Positions 972 through 57,699 of a DNA stretch of 64,000 nucleotides are shown here, one piece after another; the stretch's first letter is position 1, and each line of letters starts with the position of its first letter. Under the pieces are notes generated by a model. The model was not told the origin of the DNA. It saw only the letters and a list, made by a program, of their open reading frames with translations, and did not search any database. Position numbers and translations under genes: made by a program. The DNA is taken from contig NZ_CZPZ01000010.1 in NCBI RefSeq assembly GCF_001458775.1, positions 1-64,000 on the forward strand, given 5' to 3'. The DNA is from Candidatus Nitrospira nitrificans. Its GTDB lineage: Bacteria; Nitrospirota; Nitrospiria; Nitrospirales; Nitrospiraceae.

Positions 972-3900
972 ATGGCTTCATCGTTCGTGCACCTTCATCT
1001 CCACACTCAGTTCAGTCTCCTCGACGGCGCAAATCAGATCGAGCCGCTGGTTCGGCGGATCAAATCCTTCGATCAGCCGGCGGTAGCCATGACCGACCAT
1101 GGCAATATGTTCGGCGCGGTCGAGTTTTATCGCAAAGCCAAAGAGGTGGGCGTCAAGCCAATCATTGGTTGTGAAGCCTATATGGCCTTAGGAAGCCGAC
1201 ATGCCAAGAAGGACAGTGGGCTCGCGCATAACGATTACTACCACTTGATCCTCCTCGCGAGAAACCTTGCCGGCTATCAGAATCTCATCAAGCTCGTGAG
1301 TAAAGGATACCTCGAAGGGTTTTACTATAAACCACGGATTGATAAGGAATTACTAAAGTTACATCACGAGGGTATCATCGCCCTTTCCGGCTGTTTGAGC
1401 GGCGAAATTCCCTACTTGATCGGCCAAAACGACATGGCCGGCGCCATGACGGTGGCCGGTGAATTTCAGGAAATTTTCGGGAAGGATCAGTTCTATCTCG
1501 AGGTGCAGGCGAACGGACTCGATCATCAGCGCATCGCCAACGCCGGCCTCATGGAGATCCATAAGAAACTCGGGATCCCGTTGGCCGGCACCAACGATTG
1601 CCACTATCTGAAAAAGGAGGACTCGCGGCCGCATGAATTGATGTTGTGCCTGCAGACCGGCAAGACGGTGAGCGACCCGAACAGGATGAAATTCGACACG
1701 GATGAGCTGTATGTCAAATCGACGGAAGAAATCGCTCCGGCGTTCGCGGAATTTCCAGGCGCTGTGACGAACACCTGCCGCATTGCGGACCATTGCGAGC
1801 TCGATCTCCCGTTGAACAAGACCTATCTTCCACAATACCGAATTCCGGAAGGGTTCAAGGACCGGGAGTCCTATCTGGAACATCTCGCGCTCGCCGGGCT
1901 GAAGGAACGATTAAAAGAACGGCCCAGCCGGGTCGCGTCCGCCGTCTACGATCAGCGTCTCCGAGAAGAATTGATGGTGATCTGTTCGATGGGATTTGCC
2001 GGCTACTTTCTCATTGTCTGGGACATTATCCGTTTCGCTCGATCGAAGGGAATTCCGGTAGGGCCGGGGCGTGGTTCCGCCGCCGGCAGTCTCGTGGCCT
2101 ATGCCCTGCGCATTACCGACCTTGACCCGCTCGTCTACACCCTGTTGTTCGAGCGGTTCTTGAATCCTGAACGCGTCTCGCTTCCCGATATCGATATGGA
2201 TTTCTGCATGGACCGGCGCGGGGAAGTGATCAACTATGTGGTGGAGAAGTACGGCACCGATCATGTCGCGCAGATCATCACATTCGGGACACTCGGCGCC
2301 AAGGCGGCGATCCGCGATGTGGGCCGCGTGCTGGAGATGTCGTACGCGGATGCCGACAAGGTGGCCAAGCTCATTCCCAATCAATTGAATATCACGTTGC
2401 AACAGGCCGTGGAAACCGAGCCTCGCTTGCGTGAGCTGATGGACACGGACCCCAAGGTCAAGGAGCTGATGGCGAACGCGCAATCGCTCGAAGGCCTGGC
2501 CCGACATGCTTCGACCCATGCGGCCGGCGTCGTGATCTCCGAAGGACCGCTCACCGACCACGTGCCGCTCTATAAAGGCGCCAACGATGAAATCGTGACC
2601 CAGTACTCGATGGGAGACGTCGAGAAAATCGGGCTGGTCAAGTTCGATTTCCTCGGCCTGAAGACGCTCACGATGATTCGACGCGCCGAGACCTTGATCA
2701 ATGAAACGCATCCCGATGCGCCGCCGCTCGTGATCGATCAGGTGCCGTTCGACGACCCAGCCACCTTTGCCCTTCTGAGCTCCGGAAAAACCACCGGGCT
2801 GTTCCAGCTGGAAAGCTCCGGCATGCGCGATCTGCTCACCGGGCTGAAACCGGACCGGTTCGAAGACATCATCGCCATTATCGCGCTGTATCGCCCCGGA
2901 CCGATGGACCTCATTCCTGACTTCATCAAGCGAAAGCAGGGCAAAGTGCCCATCACCTATGAGTTGCCGGAACTGGAGCCCATCCTCAAGGATACCTATG
3001 GTGTGATCGTCTACCAAGAACAAGTCATGGCGATCGCCAACAAGATGGCCGGTTTCTCGCTGGGCCAAGCCGATATCCTTCGTCGCGCGATGGGCAAAAA
3101 GAAACCGGAAGAGATGGAAAAGCTGCGCGTCAAGTTTCTGGACGGCGCGAAACACAAGAATATTCCGGAGAAAAAAGCGGACAAGCTGTATGAACTGATT
3201 CAAAAATTCGCCGGATATGGCTTCAATAAGTCGCATGCGGCCGCCTATGCCGTTGTGTGTTATCAGACAGGCTACTTAAAAGCCCACTACCCGACCGAAT
3301 TCATGGCGGCCCTGATGACGACCGACATGGGCAATCAAGATAAGCTGGTCGGGTATTTCACCGAATGTCGGGATCTTGGCATTAAAGTGCTGGGGCCTGA
3401 TGTGAATGCGAGTCAAACACACTTCGCCGTCGCCGGCGGCGCCATCCGGTTTGGCTTGGCGGCCATCAAGAACGTCGGAGAGGGCGCGGTGGAATCGGTA
3501 CTGGACGTGCGAACACGGACCGGTCCCTTCGGGTCGTTCTTTGATTTCTGTCGGCGGGTGGATCTTCACAAGGCGAACAAGCGGATGTTGGAAGGCCTTA
3601 TTAAGGCCGGCGCCTTCGATTCCACCGGCGCCAAGCGCTCGCAACTCATGGCGGTGCTCGATCAAGCCGTGGAGGAGGGCGCCGCGGCGCAGCGTGAACG
3701 CGATCTCGGACAGATCAGCATTTTCGGCGAGGAGTTGAACGGCCACGCCACCGCAACGGCCTTGCCGAATTCCCCGCTGCCTTCGATCGCGGAATGGGAT
3801 CAAGCGCAACGGTTGAAGTACGAACGAGAGCTGACGGGGTTCTACATTTCCGCCCATCCCCTCACCCGCTACGAAGCGACGCTGAGCGCCTTGTCGACCA

Positions 3901-4436
3901 CGACGACCGTGGGATTGAAAGACTGCGGGGACGGCGGCGAGGTGAAGATCTGCGGCATCATCGCCGCGGTCAAGTCGATGCTGACAAAAAAGGGCGATCG
4001 GATGGCCTACCTCACAGTGGAAGACTTGCATGGGACCACGGAGGTGATTGTGTTCCCCGATTTGTTCAGGACGGCCGGCGAACTGATCGCGCCGGAACGG
4101 ATCGTTCGTATCACGGGCACGATCGATCGCGGCGACAAAGGCACCAAAATCCGTGGCAGCAAGATCGAACCGCTGGCCGAGGTGCAGGCGCAGGCGATCA
4201 AGCGCATCCGCATCAGCCTCATGGATCGCCCGGAGGTCTCCCAGCAATTGCCTCGATTGCGTGACGTCTTCCTGCGACATCCCGGCAACACCACGATCTC
4301 CATGTTGTTTCGGACCGACGCAAACTGGGAAGCTGAAACCAATCCCCTCCCCAACCTGACCGTTTCTCCCAGTGATCACTTTATGTCGGAGGTTGAGGAA
4401 GTGCTAGGCAAAGGGGCTCTCTCTTTGCTATCCTAG
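972..4436 (+). CDS. dnaE: DNA polymerase III subunit alpha
   Basis: This is the replicative DNA polymerase catalytic subunit, 1154 aa, the usual DnaE length. The N-terminal PHP domain is recognisable from HLHLHTQFSLLDG at the start and from NDCHYL later. The polymerase core has the GRGSAAGSLVAYAL motif and the catalytic aspartates Asp406 and Asp408 in PDIDMDFC, with the third at Asp559 in KFDFLGL. The tail carries tandem HhH and an OB-fold (VKICGIIAAVKSMLTKKGDRMAY). The ATG at 972 begins directly before the PHP domain; no strong ribosome binding site precedes it. accA follows 48 bp downstream and may be co-transcribed. Confidence 0.98.
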   Translation: MASSFVHLHLHTQFSLLDGANQIEPLVRRIKSFDQPAVAMTDHGNMFGAVEFYRKAKEVGVKPIIGCEAYMALGSRHAKKDSGLAHNDYYHLILLARNLAGYQNLIKLVSKGYLEGFYYKPRIDKELLKLHHEGIIALSGCLSGEIPYLIGQNDMAGAMTVAGEFQEIFGKDQFYLEVQANGLDHQRIANAGLMEIHKKLGIPLAGTNDCHYLKKEDSRPHELMLCLQTGKTVSDPNRMKFDTDELYVKSTEEIAPAFAEFPGAVTNTCRIADHCELDLPLNKTYLPQYRIPEGFKDRESYLEHLALAGLKERLKERPSRVASAVYDQRLREELMVICSMGFAGYFLIVWDIIRFARSKGIPVGPGRGSAAGSLVAYALRITDLDPLVYTLLFERFLNPERVSLPDIDMDFCMDRRGEVINYVVEKYGTDHVAQIITFGTLGAKAAIRDVGRVLEMSYADADKVAKLIPNQLNITLQQAVETEPRLRELMDTDPKVKELMANAQSLEGLARHASTHAAGVVISEGPLTDHVPLYKGANDEIVTQYSMGDVEKIGLVKFDFLGLKTLTMIRRAETLINETHPDAPPLVIDQVPFDDPATFALLSSGKTTGLFQLESSGMRDLLTGLKPDRFEDIIAIIALYRPGPMDLIPDFIKRKQGKVPITYELPELEPILKDTYGVIVYQEQVMAIANKMAGFSLGQADILRRAMGKKKPEEMEKLRVKFLDGAKHKNIPEKKADKLYELIQKFAGYGFNKSHAAAYAVVCYQTGYLKAHYPTEFMAALMTTDMGNQDKLVGYFTECRDLGIKVLGPDVNASQTHFAVAGGAIRFGLAAIKNVGEGAVESVLDVRTRTGPFGSFFDFCRRVDLHKANKRMLEGLIKAGAFDSTGAKRSQLMAVLDQAVEEGAAAQRERDLGQISIFGEELNGHATATALPNSPLPSIAEWDQAQRLKYERELTGFYISAHPLTRYEATLSALSTTTTVGLKDCGDGGEVKICGIIAAVKSMLTKKGDRMAYLTVEDLHGTTEVIVFPDLFRTAGELIAPERIVRITGTIDRGDKGTKIRGSKIEPLAEVQAQAIKRIRISLMDRPEVSQQLPRLRDVFLRHPGNTTISMLFRTDANWEAETNPLPNLTVSPSDHFMSEVEEVLGKGALSLLS

Positions 4437-53640: not shown

Positions 53641-53857
53641 TAAATAAGAAAGAACTCTATCGATGATCCCGAAACACTTCATTACTCGTTGGTCAGGTTG
53701 AGATCGAAGCCTACTCATACACCATTGAGAAACATGCAGAAACTAGGCTAATGGCACGTCCCTGTCAAGAGGATACTTGATGGCGAACCTGACATTCGAT
53801 ATCCCAGGGGTTCCTTTACAATCTCTGTGCTCCATGCGGCTCAATCAATCATGTTGT

Positions 53858-53944
53858 TGGTGCCCAGAGGGAGGGTCGAACTCCCACTCTCTTGCGAGAA
53901 CCGGATTTTGAGTCCGGCGCGTCTGCCAGTTCCGCCATCCGGGC
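53858..53944 (-). tRNA. tRNA-Leu (anticodon CAA)
   Basis: Read on the minus strand, the 87-nt gene starts GCCCGGATGGCGGAACTGG and ends TCTGGGC-A-CCA. The acceptor stem pairs seven bases with one G-U. The anticodon stem-loop CCGGA-CTCAAAA-TCCGG gives CAA, which reads UUG. A long variable arm (TTCTCGCAAGAGA region) and the GTTCGAC T-loop fit a class II leucine tRNA. The CCA end is encoded in the DNA. Confidence 0.97.
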
Positions 53945-54117
53945 ACAAGTCTACCCTTCGCAGCTGGTGTGTTTTTAGCATGACGACACCGGAGGGTCAA
54001 TCGGCATCCGTTGCGTGACTCAGCGAGCTGAAACGTACCGACTGCGATCGTGCAGTACCTCGCCCTCACTCGGCGTCGAGAACTACACATAATATAACGA
54101 TCGCCTATTTCTCTTTT

Positions 54118-54903
54118 TTATCCGAAACGATCTAGATAGGCGCAAGGCGTGTCTCTGTCTGATTGGCTTCTGAGCCAGTCTTGGAAATGGGTCGTGCCGA
54201 CGCAGTAGTGGCCGGCAGGCACCAACGATCGGTCGTTGAGCTTCCCGCCAAAATAGAGCGCCTGATGATCGGCCAGGACCTCGCGAGAGTCCTGGCCGCC
54301 ATTCAAAAGACGGCGCGCGACTTCGTCCAGGCGGATCCGATCAGGTCCTGCTAAATCGATCGTACGGTTGCATGGCGGGCGTTCGGCCACTTCGATCAGG
54401 AAGGCAACGACGTCATCCGCTGCAATGGGCTGCATCAGCACTGGAGGGAGTCGAACCGTAGCGCCTTGAGTGCCCAGGTCGGTGATCGTCTTGATGAATT
54501 CAAAAAATTGCGTGGCTCGAACAATCGTATACGGCATCGGACCGAGCTGGACCAGCTGCTCTTGAGCCACTTTCGCCCGCATATAGCCGACGTCCGCCAT
54601 ACGGTCTGCCCCGACGACCGACAGCACGATGTGGTGCTGCACCGTTGTCCCTGCTTCAGCGGATAGGAGATTTCGTGTTGATGTGCCAAAAAAATGCATG
54701 ACCGCGGCAGACTCGAAGGACGCTGGATTCGTGGCGTCGATAACGACCTGGGCATCCTTCAACGCTGCTGTCAGTCCAGAGCCCGTGAGCGTGTCGACAC
54801 CCGATGCGGGTGATGCTGGTATGCCCTGATGCCCACGTTGATCGAGCTGTCTGACTAGCCGAGCGCCGATCAGCCCGCTGCCGCCAATGACGACGATCTT
54901 CAT
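54118..54903 (-). CDS. NAD(P)-binding SDR/NmrA-like protein
   Basis: This 261-aa protein begins with MKIVVIGGSGLIGARLVRQL, a GxxGxxG Rossmann motif of the atypical short-chain dehydrogenase group. Later parts (HIVLSVVGADRMADVGYMRA, YTIVRATQFFEFI) match NmrA/quinone-reductase-like proteins that sense redox state or reduce quinones. The classical YxxxK pair is not clear. It is downstream of the cupin gene by 91 bp on the same strand and probably belongs to the Rrf2 neighbourhood. Confidence 0.85.
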   Translation of the reverse strand: MKIVVIGGSGLIGARLVRQLDQRGHQGIPASPASGVDTLTGSGLTAALKDAQVVIDATNPASFESAAVMHFFGTSTRNLLSAEAGTTVQHHIVLSVVGADRMADVGYMRAKVAQEQLVQLGPMPYTIVRATQFFEFIKTITDLGTQGATVRLPPVLMQPIAADDVVAFLIEVAERPPCNRTIDLAGPDRIRLDEVARRLLNGGQDSREVLADHQALYFGGKLNDRSLVPAGHYCVGTTHFQDWLRSQSDRDTPCAYLDRFG

Positions 54904-54994: not shown

Positions 54995-55384
54995 CTACTT
55001 GACAGGTACCAGCACCGGCGCCTGCTTGTCCTTGAGGAAGAACACCACGAACTTTGCCGGCTTGGTATCGCTCGCGTTTCGTCCCACCGTATGCACATCG
55101 TTCGGCCCTTCGTAGAAGGTTTGTCCCGGCGTCAAGGTCACAGGTTTCCCTCCCTCGACCTGCATGACAATAGAGCCTTCGAGCACATAGATGAACACAT
55201 GCGCATTGTGCCGGTGTACTGAGTCGGTTGAACCAGGAGGAAAATTGACAGTGACCATCAGTCCTTCTTTGCCGGGCATGTCGACAAGATCTTTTGAGAA
55301 CAGCGGCGTGACTTCAGCTTGCTGTGCCAAAAGAGGACTAGACATGAAGCTCACAAACCAGCAGGTCAACAGCAGTTTTTTCAT
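54995..55384 (-). CDS. secreted cupin-domain protein
   Basis: This 129-aa protein has a signal peptide ending at PLLAQQA. The single cupin unit has the metal-binding pattern STDSVHRHNAHVFIYVLEGS with two His and then EGPNDVHTV with a third. Such proteins bind a metal ion and small ligands. An inverted repeat, GTACAT-N7-ATGTAC, lies 21 bp ahead of the start codon and may be its operator. It is followed by the SDR gene. Confidence 0.85.
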   Translation of the reverse strand: MKKLLLTCWFVSFMSSPLLAQQAEVTPLFSKDLVDMPGKEGLMVTVNFPPGSTDSVHRHNAHVFIYVLEGSIVMQVEGGKPVTLTPGQTFYEGPNDVHTVGRNASDTKPAKFVVFFLKDKQAPVLVPVK

Positions 55385-55404: not shown

Positions 55405-55423
55405 GTACATCGAGATTATGTAC
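55405..55423. promoter_or_regulatory. inverted repeat upstream of the cupin gene
   Basis: GTACAT and ATGTAC flank a 7-nt spacer. The position, just before the start codon and ribosome binding site of the cupin gene, fits a repressor site. The protein that binds it is unknown. Confidence 0.35.
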
Positions 55424-55513: not shown

Positions 55514-56044
55514 TCACCTCTTCCGATGGAGATGCTCACCAGGGCGGGCCTGGGGCCGCTCGAACCAGGCATTGACCTCGTTCAGAAACTCCTTCGGCGC
55601 CTTCCGCTCGACTTGCTGAGCCAAGTCTGCAAGCGTATACGCATCGAGTGTTTGTCGCATGCGGCGCTCCGCCTCTTGCATCACTGCGTGAATACTACAG
55701 ACGCCCTTCTTTGCCCACGCCGGAGGTGAGGCGTCGAACAAGGCGCAGTTCAGGCGAACTTCCGTACATTTGAAGAGCGCCTTGCTGCCCTCCAGGGCCG
55801 CGACCGCATCCCAAACCGTGATCTCTTCCGGTGGACGTGCCAGCATGTACCCGCCGCCTGCCCCTTCGCTGGCCGTAACCAGGCCACCCCTTTTCATTTT
55901 AGTGAACAGTTTGGCGACAAAAGTTGGTGAGATGCCTTGCAACTTCGCCAGGTCCGCGACGTTCGCTTTCACCGAGCCTGACCGGCCGACGAGAAAAAGG
56001 AGGCAGTGCAGCCCATATTCAACCCTGGAAGCGTAAAGCGCCAT
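55514..56044 (-). CDS. Rrf2 family transcriptional regulator with three-Cys cluster site
   Basis: This 176-aa regulator has the Rrf2 winged-helix start MALYASRVEYGLHCLLFLVG and the wing GAGGGYMLARPPEEITVWDA. Cys93, Cys100 and Cys116 (LFKCTEVRLNC and GVCSIHAVM) could ligate an iron-sulfur cluster, with wider spacing than in IscR or NsrR. The start codon forms the end of a perfect 12-bp inverted repeat, and no ribosome binding site precedes it, so the mRNA may be leaderless and autoregulated. The neighbours are a cupin, an SDR protein and a divergent YggX-like protein. Confidence 0.92.
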   Translation of the reverse strand: MALYASRVEYGLHCLLFLVGRSGSVKANVADLAKLQGISPTFVAKLFTKMKRGGLVTASEGAGGGYMLARPPEEITVWDAVAALEGSKALFKCTEVRLNCALFDASPPAWAKKGVCSIHAVMQEAERRMRQTLDAYTLADLAQQVERKAPKEFLNEVNAWFERPQARPGEHLHRKR

Positions 56045-56074
56045 ATAACTAAGACCAACTATGTCTTAGTTATA
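56044..56074. promoter_or_regulatory. perfect inverted repeat at the Rrf2 gene start, probable operator
   Basis: TATAACTAAGAC and GTCTTAGTTATA are perfect complements around a 7-nt spacer. The left arm begins at the first base of the Rrf2 start codon. The ACTAAGAC arms recall AT-rich dyads bound by Rrf2 proteins. Bound protein here would block the regulator's own transcription, so autoregulation is likely. Confidence 0.65.
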
Positions 56075-56296
56075 CAGATGCAGATGGACCAGATCAAGCA
56101 GGAAAAGGCTGCATAATAAGTATCAATCTTTTCCATGTTGATTGAGAAAAAGAAGCGCGTGCGAGCCTGATCTTTTCTTCACTGGAACTTCTCTGATAAG
56201 ATGCTGCTCAAATATGTAATATGAAAATTTGAAAGTTGAATCGCTTTCAGCATTTGATCGTTTAACTTGACGCAACAGCAAAAGGAGCTGATGGAC

Positions 56297-56578
56297 ATGG
56301 CAGAGGTTTTTTGTGTGACATGCGGTCAGTCCGGTGAAGCTATCACAGCCCCTCTGTTTCTTGGTAAGCTTGAGTCTGAAGTAAAAAGCAAAGTCTGCAC
56401 AAGCTGCTGGAAGAAGTGGGAAGGCATGCGGGTGATGGTCATCAATGAATATCAAGTCAATCTCGGCGATGAGAGCGGCCGTGAACTGGTTCGTAAACAG
56501 ATGAAAGCTTTCCTGAAACTGGGAGAACAGGTCGATTCGTCAAAGGTTGCCGAGAACTATCGCCCGCCGACCAGCTGA
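56297..56578 (+). CDS. YggX-like Fe(II)-trafficking / oxidative damage protection protein
   Basis: From the ATG at 56297, spaced 9 nt from AGGAG, the protein is 93 aa. The C-terminal two thirds (LGKLESEVKSKVCTSC, then WKKWEGMRVMVINEYQVNL and VRKQMKAFL) align well with YggX, which protects iron-sulfur proteins. Unlike canonical YggX, it has two CxxC pairs: Cys6/Cys9 and Cys34/Cys37, enough for a four-Cys metal site. Starts at 56267 (TTG) and 56291 are less well spaced. It is divergent from the Rrf2 gene. Confidence 0.8.
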   Translation: MAEVFCVTCGQSGEAITAPLFLGKLESEVKSKVCTSCWKKWEGMRVMVINEYQVNLGDESGRELVRKQMKAFLKLGEQVDSSKVAENYRPPTS

Positions 56579-56734: not shown

Positions 56735-57190
56735 ATGATCACGCAGATGCAGGTCAAGGGGCTCATGTTTGACCCCTACAACAATGCGTATATCGTCATT
56801 CTCCGAGACGAGGATCAATCGGAAATGCTTCCGATCTGGGTCGGAAAATCGGAAGCCAGTTCGATCAGTCTGGCGATTGAGAACGTCGCCCCTCCCCGCC
56901 CTATGACTCATGATTTTATGAAAGCCTACTTGGATGCGTTCAATGCCAAGGTCATTAGTGTGGTGATTACAGACCTCAATGAACATACCTACTTTGCCAA
57001 AGTTCACTTGACCTACGCAGACTCGGAGTATACCGTCGATTCACGTCCAAGTGACGCCATCGCCCTTGCGCTTCGGACCCAAGCTCCGATTTTTGCGAGT
57101 GAGTCCGTGATTCGGAAGCAGAGCTCGGAAGAACTCGATCAGTGGCTGGAAAACCTGAAGCCCGAAGACTTCGGAAAGCTGGACTCCTGA
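56735..57190 (+). CDS. bifunctional nuclease family protein (DUF151), copy 1
   Basis: This 151-aa protein matches the BFN/DUF151 family: YNNAYIVILRDEDQSEMLPI, WVGKSEASSISLAIENVAPP with RPMTHDF, and then YTVDSRPSDAIALALRTQAP. Plant and thermophile members have nuclease activity in vitro; the role in most bacteria is open. A second copy follows 20 bp downstream. A TTGACA promoter is visible ahead of it. Confidence 0.9.
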   Translation: MITQMQVKGLMFDPYNNAYIVILRDEDQSEMLPIWVGKSEASSISLAIENVAPPRPMTHDFMKAYLDAFNAKVISVVITDLNEHTYFAKVHLTYADSEYTVDSRPSDAIALALRTQAPIFASESVIRKQSSEELDQWLENLKPEDFGKLDS

Positions 57191-57210: not shown

Positions 57211-57699
57211 ATGGAAGAGCACGCGCCTCAAACGACCGAACCATTGATACAACTTGAGGTCAATCGAGTCGTAGAAGACTCGACGACGGACACGAGGATC
57301 GTCGTCCTGACCCGAGCCGACGGCGCGTCAGACCTGTTCATGGTATGGGTGGGAGCATCGGAAGGTGAAGCGATCAGACGTGCCCTGGATACCTCGACGA
57401 CGCCACGACCGATGAGCCACGATCTGATCAAGAGCTTCGGCGAACACCTCGGCGTCAAGATGGAACGAGCGGTCCTCACGGATGTCAAGAGCAGCACCTA
57501 CTATGCAACCGTCTTCCTCGAAAACAAGGGAGTCGTGCGCACCATCGACTCCAGGCCGAGCGACGCGTTTGCCTTGGCGCTCCGCTGCCGCGCGCCGATT
57601 TATGTGACGCAGGACGTGTGGACGCGACGCAGTGGTCAGAATCTGGATGCGTGGCTGTCCAAACTGGAAACGAAGAATATCGGGGCCCAAGAAGTCTAA
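57211..57699 (+). CDS. bifunctional nuclease family protein (DUF151), copy 2
   Basis: From the ATG at 57211 it is 162 aa and clearly paralogous to the gene before it: LFMVWVGASEGEAIRRALDT, TPRPMSHDLIKSFGEHLG and VRTIDSRPSDAFALALRCRA. The N-terminus is longer and acidic. The ribosome binding site is weak, so it may depend on coupling to copy 1. It is 40 bp ahead of rplM. An old tandem duplication with divergence is likely. Confidence 0.88.
   Translation: MEEHAPQTTEPLIQLEVNRVVEDSTTDTRIVVLTRADGASDLFMVWVGASEGEAIRRALDTSTTPRPMSHDLIKSFGEHLGVKMERAVLTDVKSSTYYATVFLENKGVVRTIDSRPSDAFALALRCRAPIYVTQDVWTRRSGQNLDAWLSKLETKNIGAQEV

Follow-up and report, generated by a model that had tools for sequence, protein, structure and literature searches.

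A perfect inverted repeat at the start codon of an RsrR-like Rrf2 gene in Candidatus Nitrospira nitrificans is very probably an autoregulatory operator

The operators of the lambda cI and Tn1721 tetR repressor genes overlap the start region. Both genes are leaderless and have been named as the first such cases, and acuR of Rhodobacter sphaeroides was found by 5'-RACE to be leaderless as well, with an inverted repeat that overlaps its promoter (PMC3017554). Within the Rrf2 family, RsrR, characterised in Streptomyces venezuelae (PMC5015018), holds a [2Fe-2S] cluster through E8, H12, C90 and C110 (PMC9218516), with two cysteines provided by one subunit and the histidine and glutamate by the other (PMC11138216). 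The primer table of the RsrR study gives two EMSA sites of the rsrR promoter, AACTCGGATACCCGATGTCCGAGAT and TACTCGGATAGTCTGTGTCCGAGTC, bound in vitro by the Streptomyces protein, and the same study connects the class 1 targets of RsrR with NAD(P)H metabolism (PMC5015018). A literature search over titles and the openings of abstracts, with few subscription papers covered, returned nothing on an Rrf2 operator joined to its start codon in the arrangement that we describe here.

The stretch analysed, hereafter the window, comprises 64,000 nt of Candidatus Nitrospira nitrificans (contig NZ_CZPZ01000010.1, positions 1 to 64,000). It contains an inverted repeat with arms at 56044-56055 and 56063-56074 that are 100% complementary across a 7-nt spacer, and, read on the gene strand, the repeat ends with the A of the ATG at 56044, where an Rrf2 gene starts. 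A sequence-only reading had described a perfect 12-bp repeat meeting the ATG, and our coordinates confirm it. The main features of the locus are the following:

56044 to 56074, minus strand: perfect 12-7-12 inverted repeat, defined by arm pairing; in the 4.1-Mb genome, a search at up to 3 mismatches matched only this site

56047 to 56071, minus strand: 25-bp operator core, AACTAAGAC-ATAGTTG-GTCTTAGTT, a predicted RsrR-type site from its weight-matrix rank and from relatives

55514 to 56044, minus strand: RsrR-like Rrf2 regulator of 176 aa (PF02082, 1.1e-34; RsrR, 6hsd, as closest structure; E9, H13, C93, C116)

54995 to 55384, minus strand: cupin gene, probably of the same operon (PF07883, 1.2e-16; same order in the Nitrospira loci L091 and L094)

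54118 to 54903, minus strand: NAD(P)-binding gene (NAD_binding_10, PF13460, 1.2e-07; NmrA-like in relatives), probably of the same operon, with the order as in L091 and L094

This is the one perfect dyad in the whole 64 kb with arms of at least 12 nt and a spacer of up to 12; among ten simulated first-order windows, nine had none and one had a single case. Besides being rare, the dyad falls on a start codon. When scored with a matrix built without the four Nitrospira training sites, its core ranked first in the 64 kb, at 16.8 against 8.7 for the next position.

The regulator belongs to the Rrf2 superfamily (PF02082, 119.8 bits against a cut-off of 30; TIGR00738, 102.1 against 73.3), and its closest named relative is from Nitrospira sp. 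LK70 (76%). By sequence, the best solved structure is RsrR, with an E value of 1.1e-24 for the single sequence and 4.7e-34 for a 17-sequence profile; the next structural family follows at 8.9e-13 and 2.7e-16, respectively. The top 11 matches of a fold search, made with a query model of modest quality (mean pLDDT 73.1), were all RsrR chains. At residues 95-100 the AlphaFold model has low confidence, and it is not a basis for judging cluster geometry. In a 42-row tree, RsrR falls among these proteins with a support of 93/93, below the 95/80 that the tool stars, and as a long branch of unsure placement; outside the group lie T. potens IscR, the three other Rrf2 proteins of the genome and a Thermodesulfatator protein.

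Residues E9, H13, C93 and C116 align with the four RsrR ligands, and all four are kept in 32/32 relatives, a chosen set of five Nitrospira-genus genes (the window's own genome counted) and 27 plasmid-borne genes. The likely cluster ligands are therefore, as in RsrR (6HSD, 6Y42), a glutamate, a histidine and two cysteines rather than a set of three cysteines, and a [2Fe-2S] type of cluster is what they would predict. The sequence-only reading had counted three cysteines with unusual spacing and proposed cluster sensing on that ground. The cysteines are present as C93, C100 and C116, with C14 in addition, and cluster sensing is probable by way of the RsrR-like ligand set, with C93 and C116 as the only two of the three predicted to be ligands. 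Cys100 is kept in 30/32 relatives and is a glycine in RsrR, whereas the redox-switch residue of RsrR, Trp9, is replaced by Tyr10 in 32/32. Because of this replacement we call the protein RsrR-like rather than RsrR, and its redox switch may differ.

With NsrR and IscR the protein shares the Rrf2 fold and, probably, Fe-S sensing, but it lies far below their NCBIfam cut-offs. An IscR identity was rejected on TIGR02010 (58.3 bits against 207.55) and an NsrR identity on 48.3 bits against 182, on Glu9, and on cysteines 93/100/116, of which C100 is not invariant; the cut-offs of RirA and CymR were missed as well. NsrR of S. coelicolor is described with Asp8 and three cysteines as ligands, the cysteines being spaced differently from those of the window protein.

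The operator was then defined across the relatives, numbered here by locus (L). The Nitrospira-genus genes were those found in 5/98 genomes at E 1e-20, and the plasmid records were picked for spread among Alpha-, Beta- and Gammaproteobacteria from 383 + 62 matching records. The 22 of the 32 sites on which the weight matrix was trained share the 25-bp pattern AACNNNGAY-N7-RTCNNNGTT, and the window core is of this kind (AACTCGGAT type), with two 9-bp half-sites around a 7-bp centre. Sites were called at a score of at least 9 within 300 nt, using matrices that left out the query's group by assigned labels, which for L062 (Rhizobium etli) left the other Rhizobium sites in. By this measure 31/32 relatives have a site within 300 nt of the ATG. 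Counted from the ATG, it ends at -3 to 8 nt in 20/32 and at -3 to 45 nt in 29/32; of the shuffled upstream sequences, scored with the full matrix, 0.6% had a site anywhere and 0.06% had one in the -3 to 8 interval. The AAC and GA letters, the symmetry and the 7-nt spacer are constant among the sites. The middle letters of the half-sites vary (TAA in four of the five Nitrospira genes; GCG, ACG, TCA and others elsewhere) and are mostly still paired, with a mean of 7.6 to 7.7 of the 9 core pairs.

The distance to the start codon varies by group. The site lies 13 to 14 nt before the ATG in Rhizobium etli and three Sinorhizobium relatives, 25 to 42 nt before it in Acinetobacter, two Azospirillum and two Microvirga relatives, and 242 and 162 nt from the regulator ATG in L026 (Psychrobacter) and L060 (Pseudomonas), respectively. 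L027 (Burkholderia) has no site within 300 nt and one at +1876. In three members of the wider Nitrospirota (L034-L036), no ATG-proximal dyad was seen by eye. Pairing beyond the 25-bp core was not clearly specific to ATG-touching sites, and we do not claim that the start codon has been selected as operator sequence. A second operator-like site occurs 40-43 bp upstream of the first in L024, L028, L049, L051, L052, L053 and L054. L029 (Sphingopyxis) carries a high-scoring site (33.4) at +691, downstream of the regulator and just before insertion-sequence genes, with short unannotated ORFs nearby. A search of viral contigs gave one relative only; among phage records, the 10 listed of 26 included two Acinetobacter entries at 51% identity, the rest being at about 32% or less.

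The two RsrR-bound sites in the primer table, AACTCGGATACCCGATGTCCGAGAT and TACTCGGATAGTCTGTGTCCGAGTC, have the same geometry as the 25-bp pattern and equal its fixed letters in most places, and the Nitrospira L016 site, TACTCGGATAAAAATAGTCTGAGTA, is especially near the second of them. On the matrix they score only 12.5 and 12.1, against 12.8 for the best chance match in the window's own genome. Because these scores are at the level of chance matches, the correspondence rests on the pattern and on just two sites named beforehand. The likeness to RsrR extends to a 25-bp dyad with AACNNNGAY-type half-sites at the regulator's own promoter (PMC5015018); the window differs in having one site where RsrR has two, as well as in Tyr for Trp9 and the additional Cys100. 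That the dyad is an operator and serves autoregulation, as first proposed from the sequence, is supported by its conservation in Nitrospira and Proteobacteria and by the pattern common to the RsrR-bound sites. We regard the dyad as almost certainly an operator and, with high confidence, as a DNA site through which an RsrR-like Rrf2 repressor, dependent on a [2Fe-2S] cluster, regulates its own gene.

The gap between regulator and cupin gene is 130 nt, and co-transcription of the regulator with the cupin and NAD(P)-binding genes is probable. A cupin gene lies downstream of the regulator in 5/5 Nitrospira loci (in L093 identified by eye): in three (the window, L091 and L094) it comes directly, with an NAD(P)-binding gene next, and in two (L092 and L093) after a Pyr_redox_2 oxidoreductase. 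On the plasmids, neighbours were readable in 13/27 stretches, the other 14 carrying no listed gene. Cupin genes together with NAD(P)-dependent/SDR oxidoreductases occur at L020, L021, L030 and L050, and further off at L031; FAD or NADH dehydrogenase-type enzymes lie near the regulator at L024, L054, L060 and L061, an NAD(P)H-dependent oxidoreductase at L026, and a response regulator with a more distant SDR gene at L022 and L025. Genes of redox function are thus often found beside the regulator, but L029 has none among its annotated neighbours. RsrR, too, has an NAD(P)-binding gene as neighbour according to PMC5015018; there it is a divergent nmrA, unlike the codirectional downstream cupin and NAD(P)-binding genes of the window.

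Several further features were noted around these loci. In the window, a short dyad, GTACAT-N7-ATGTAC (55405-55423), seen by eye just before the cupin gene, falls outside the operator pattern. Divergent from the regulator, at 56294-56578 on the plus strand, is a gene for a YggX-like Fe(2+)-trafficking protein (PF04362, 1.4e-14) that carries two additional CxxC pairs and stays below the NCBIfam cut-off (62 against 74 bits); inspection by eye did not show this gene next to the regulator at the other four Nitrospira loci. It is followed by tandem bifunctional-nuclease-domain genes (56735-57190 and 57211-57699, plus strand), and on the other side a tRNA-Leu (CAA) at 53858-53944 on the minus strand is overrun by the mechanical ORF 53845-54090. 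At L091 (genome G025), an old-yellow-enzyme-type gene (PF00724; 4559-6106, minus strand) and another Rrf2 gene adjoin the RsrR-like operon. The Azospirillum plasmid loci L021 and L050 have an alternative oxidase gene after the regulator, and L021 also a truncated haemoglobin gene and nirK.

The sequence-only reading had suggested looking for the same dyad before other genes to define a regulon. In the window's own genome (4.1 Mb), pattern and matrix searches revealed no second full site that was convincing: ACTAAG-N11-CTTAGT, with up to 3 mismatches allowed, matched 413 times and its reversed control 1753 times; AACNNNGAY-N7-RTCNNNGTT, with up to 1 mismatch allowed, matched at 33 places (control, 12), the other 32 scoring no higher than 12.8; and a Nitrospira pattern of narrower definition, with up to 2 mismatches allowed, matched at 4 places (control, 9). 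The best other place of the narrow pattern, inside a dioxygenase gene (PF00775), was rejected. The other four Nitrospira genomes have one place each at 0-1 mismatch, at the regulator, with 2, 2, 4 and 2 places in all against 4, 6, 10 and 4 in controls. Second-gene sites do occur in plasmid relatives, with an additional site between the regulator and a divergent oxidoreductase gene at L026, L060 and L061 and one also before the SDR gene at L021. As the window's genome yielded no convincing second full site, the direct regulon may be just the regulator operon. This differs from RsrR, for which 630 ChIP-exo targets, most of them with half-sites, are given in PMC5015018, although by analogy the Nitrospira regulon may likewise be larger through half-sites.

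How transcription and translation begin at such a locus bears on the other claim made from the sequence, a leaderless mRNA whose start site the regulator covers. All 32 relatives, each read from the start of its match, have an ATG aligned with the first residue, and for this reason the ATG at 56044 is well supported as the start. At L091 in G025, the regulator (3569-4075, minus strand) has an in-frame ATG 6 nt upstream of the conserved start, and its start is ambiguous. The reported absence of a ribosome binding site was borne out: the longest consecutive match to AAGGAGGTGA at -18 to -4 is 3. Such absence does not set this gene apart in the window, where for 12/49 mechanical ORFs of at least 150 aa the best start likewise has no match longer than 3; in the 32 relatives the match is never longer than 4, so that the absence is conserved, though not rare in the window. 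Promoters were scored with approximate sigma-70 frequencies, over 80 nt and 200 nt upstream, which yielded these elements:

56092 to 56097, minus strand: putative -35, TTGATC, of the best promoter-like pair in 200 nt (17-nt spacer)

56069 to 56074, minus strand: putative -10, TATAAC, of the same pair, being the outer six bases of the left arm of the dyad

56062, minus strand: predicted transcription start, inside the dyad, inferred from the promoter score, with an 18-nt leader that has no Shine-Dalgarno sequence

This pair scored 9.4, with a weak p_shuf of 0.09. A near tie, 0.8 lower at 8.6, is TCAACA-17-TATTAT, which would start upstream of the dyad and give a 62-nt leader; it lies beyond the 80-nt range, and a general promoter scan that required T at position 6 returned it and omitted TTGATC/TATAAC. 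For the window a short leader of about 18 nt, consisting almost entirely of the operator's right half, is thus more likely than a leaderless transcript, by a small margin over the upstream promoter. Should the prediction of 18 nt hold, the regulator would still cover its own start site, at 56062 within the dyad.

That the operator is the same but the gene truly leaderless, with transcription from the A of the ATG and translation of a 5'-terminal AUG, is unlikely for the window, whereas for some relatives it is likely. Eleven relatives, all Alphaproteobacteria, have an operator ending no more than 1 nt from the ATG, and when 80 nt are scanned the top promoter of all 11 implies a leader of 0-1 nt; a 200-nt scan gives the same for 10/11, the exception being L048, whose top pair then lies away from the ATG. 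All 11 promoters have a spacer of 17, with the -10 box in or beside the operator centre (TATAGT in 5/11), and p_shuf is at most 0.05 in 7/11 and above 0.05 in 4/11, which weakens the leaderless prediction for the latter. The conserved lack of a Shine-Dalgarno match longer than 4 and the acuR precedent (PMC3017554) also speak for leaderlessness. The window, like the AcuR operon as described there, has a predicted autorepressor gene without a Shine-Dalgarno sequence and a promoter-overlapping repeat adjoining the ATG. AcuR is, however, a TetR-family protein with acrylate as effector, the lambda cI and Tn1721 tetR regulators are unrelated to the window's Rrf2 protein, and a short leader is favoured here: the four best promoter pairs of the window within 200 nt all give at least 18 nt, and the other four Nitrospira genes have predicted leaders of 7, 20, 26 and 26 nt over both ranges. 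The leaderless proposal is only partly supported: it is predicted for the 11 alphaproteobacterial relatives, and the window's best promoter predicts an 18-nt leader.

The dyad could instead work in RNA, as a start-codon hairpin that controls translation. In a transcript started upstream it would form a hairpin of -18.2 kcal/mol (z -2.96) in which A and U of the start codon are paired, and the promoter scoring 8.6, as opposed to the preferred one at 9.4, would produce such a transcript. From the predicted start, however, the left arm is untranscribed and the leader unstructured (-3.3 kcal/mol, z +2.0), so the hairpin would matter only for upstream-started transcripts, and the best promoters of the other four Nitrospira genes (200 nt) are also predicted to start in the dyad region. 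Pairing alone would need none of the AAC and GA letters that are kept across phyla, sites also occur far from the regulator ATG and before other genes, and the dyad matches sites that RsrR is reported to bind as DNA; control through RNA is accordingly a reading to which we give little weight. Least credible is a chance palindrome, or a site of another regulator placed here by coincidence. The simulations gave roughly one such dyad for every ten windows, and the operator role is itself a prediction here, but relatives of this gene have a site of the same pattern in the corresponding position, which argues against coincidence. A DNA operator remains the reading that we prefer.

As such an operator, the dyad would most likely serve redox-gated autorepression of the regulator-cupin-NAD(P)-binding operon; the dyad, its position and conservation, the ligand residues and the RsrR-like pattern are seen in the sequence itself, and the cluster type, the redox sensing, the repression, the operon and the transcription start are inferred. 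A dimer bound to the half-sites AACTAAGAC and GTCTTAGTT would lie over the -10 region, transcription start and ATG of the gene that encodes it, blocking RNA polymerase. The regulator would thereby repress itself and probably also the downstream cupin and NAD(P)-binding genes, and it would leave the DNA when the redox state of the cluster changes. In RsrR the form with the oxidised [2Fe-2S] cluster binds DNA.

We also speculate, tentatively, that the RsrR-like lineage fuses operator, promoter and start codon into a module of about 50 bp, in which the symmetry and the position next to the ATG have been kept while the variable letters and the promoter register have changed between phyla. As part of this speculation, in one register (several Rhizobiaceae, Sphingomonadaceae and Komagataeibacter) the -10 would lie in the operator centre and the gene would be leaderless, and in the other (Nitrospira and some Betaproteobacteria) the -10 would abut or overlap the left arm and the leader would be mostly operator. 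In a read-through transcript the whole dyad might then form a hairpin and mask the AUG, possibly insulating the loop at the RNA level.

The ligand set and the operator pattern link RsrR, characterised in Streptomyces venezuelae, to regulators encoded on plasmids from many Proteobacteria and in Nitrospira genomes, and give those regulators a predicted operator that can be tested. A family with overlapping operator, promoter and start codon would also be well suited to asking why autorepressors tend to lose their leaders and ribosome binding sites.
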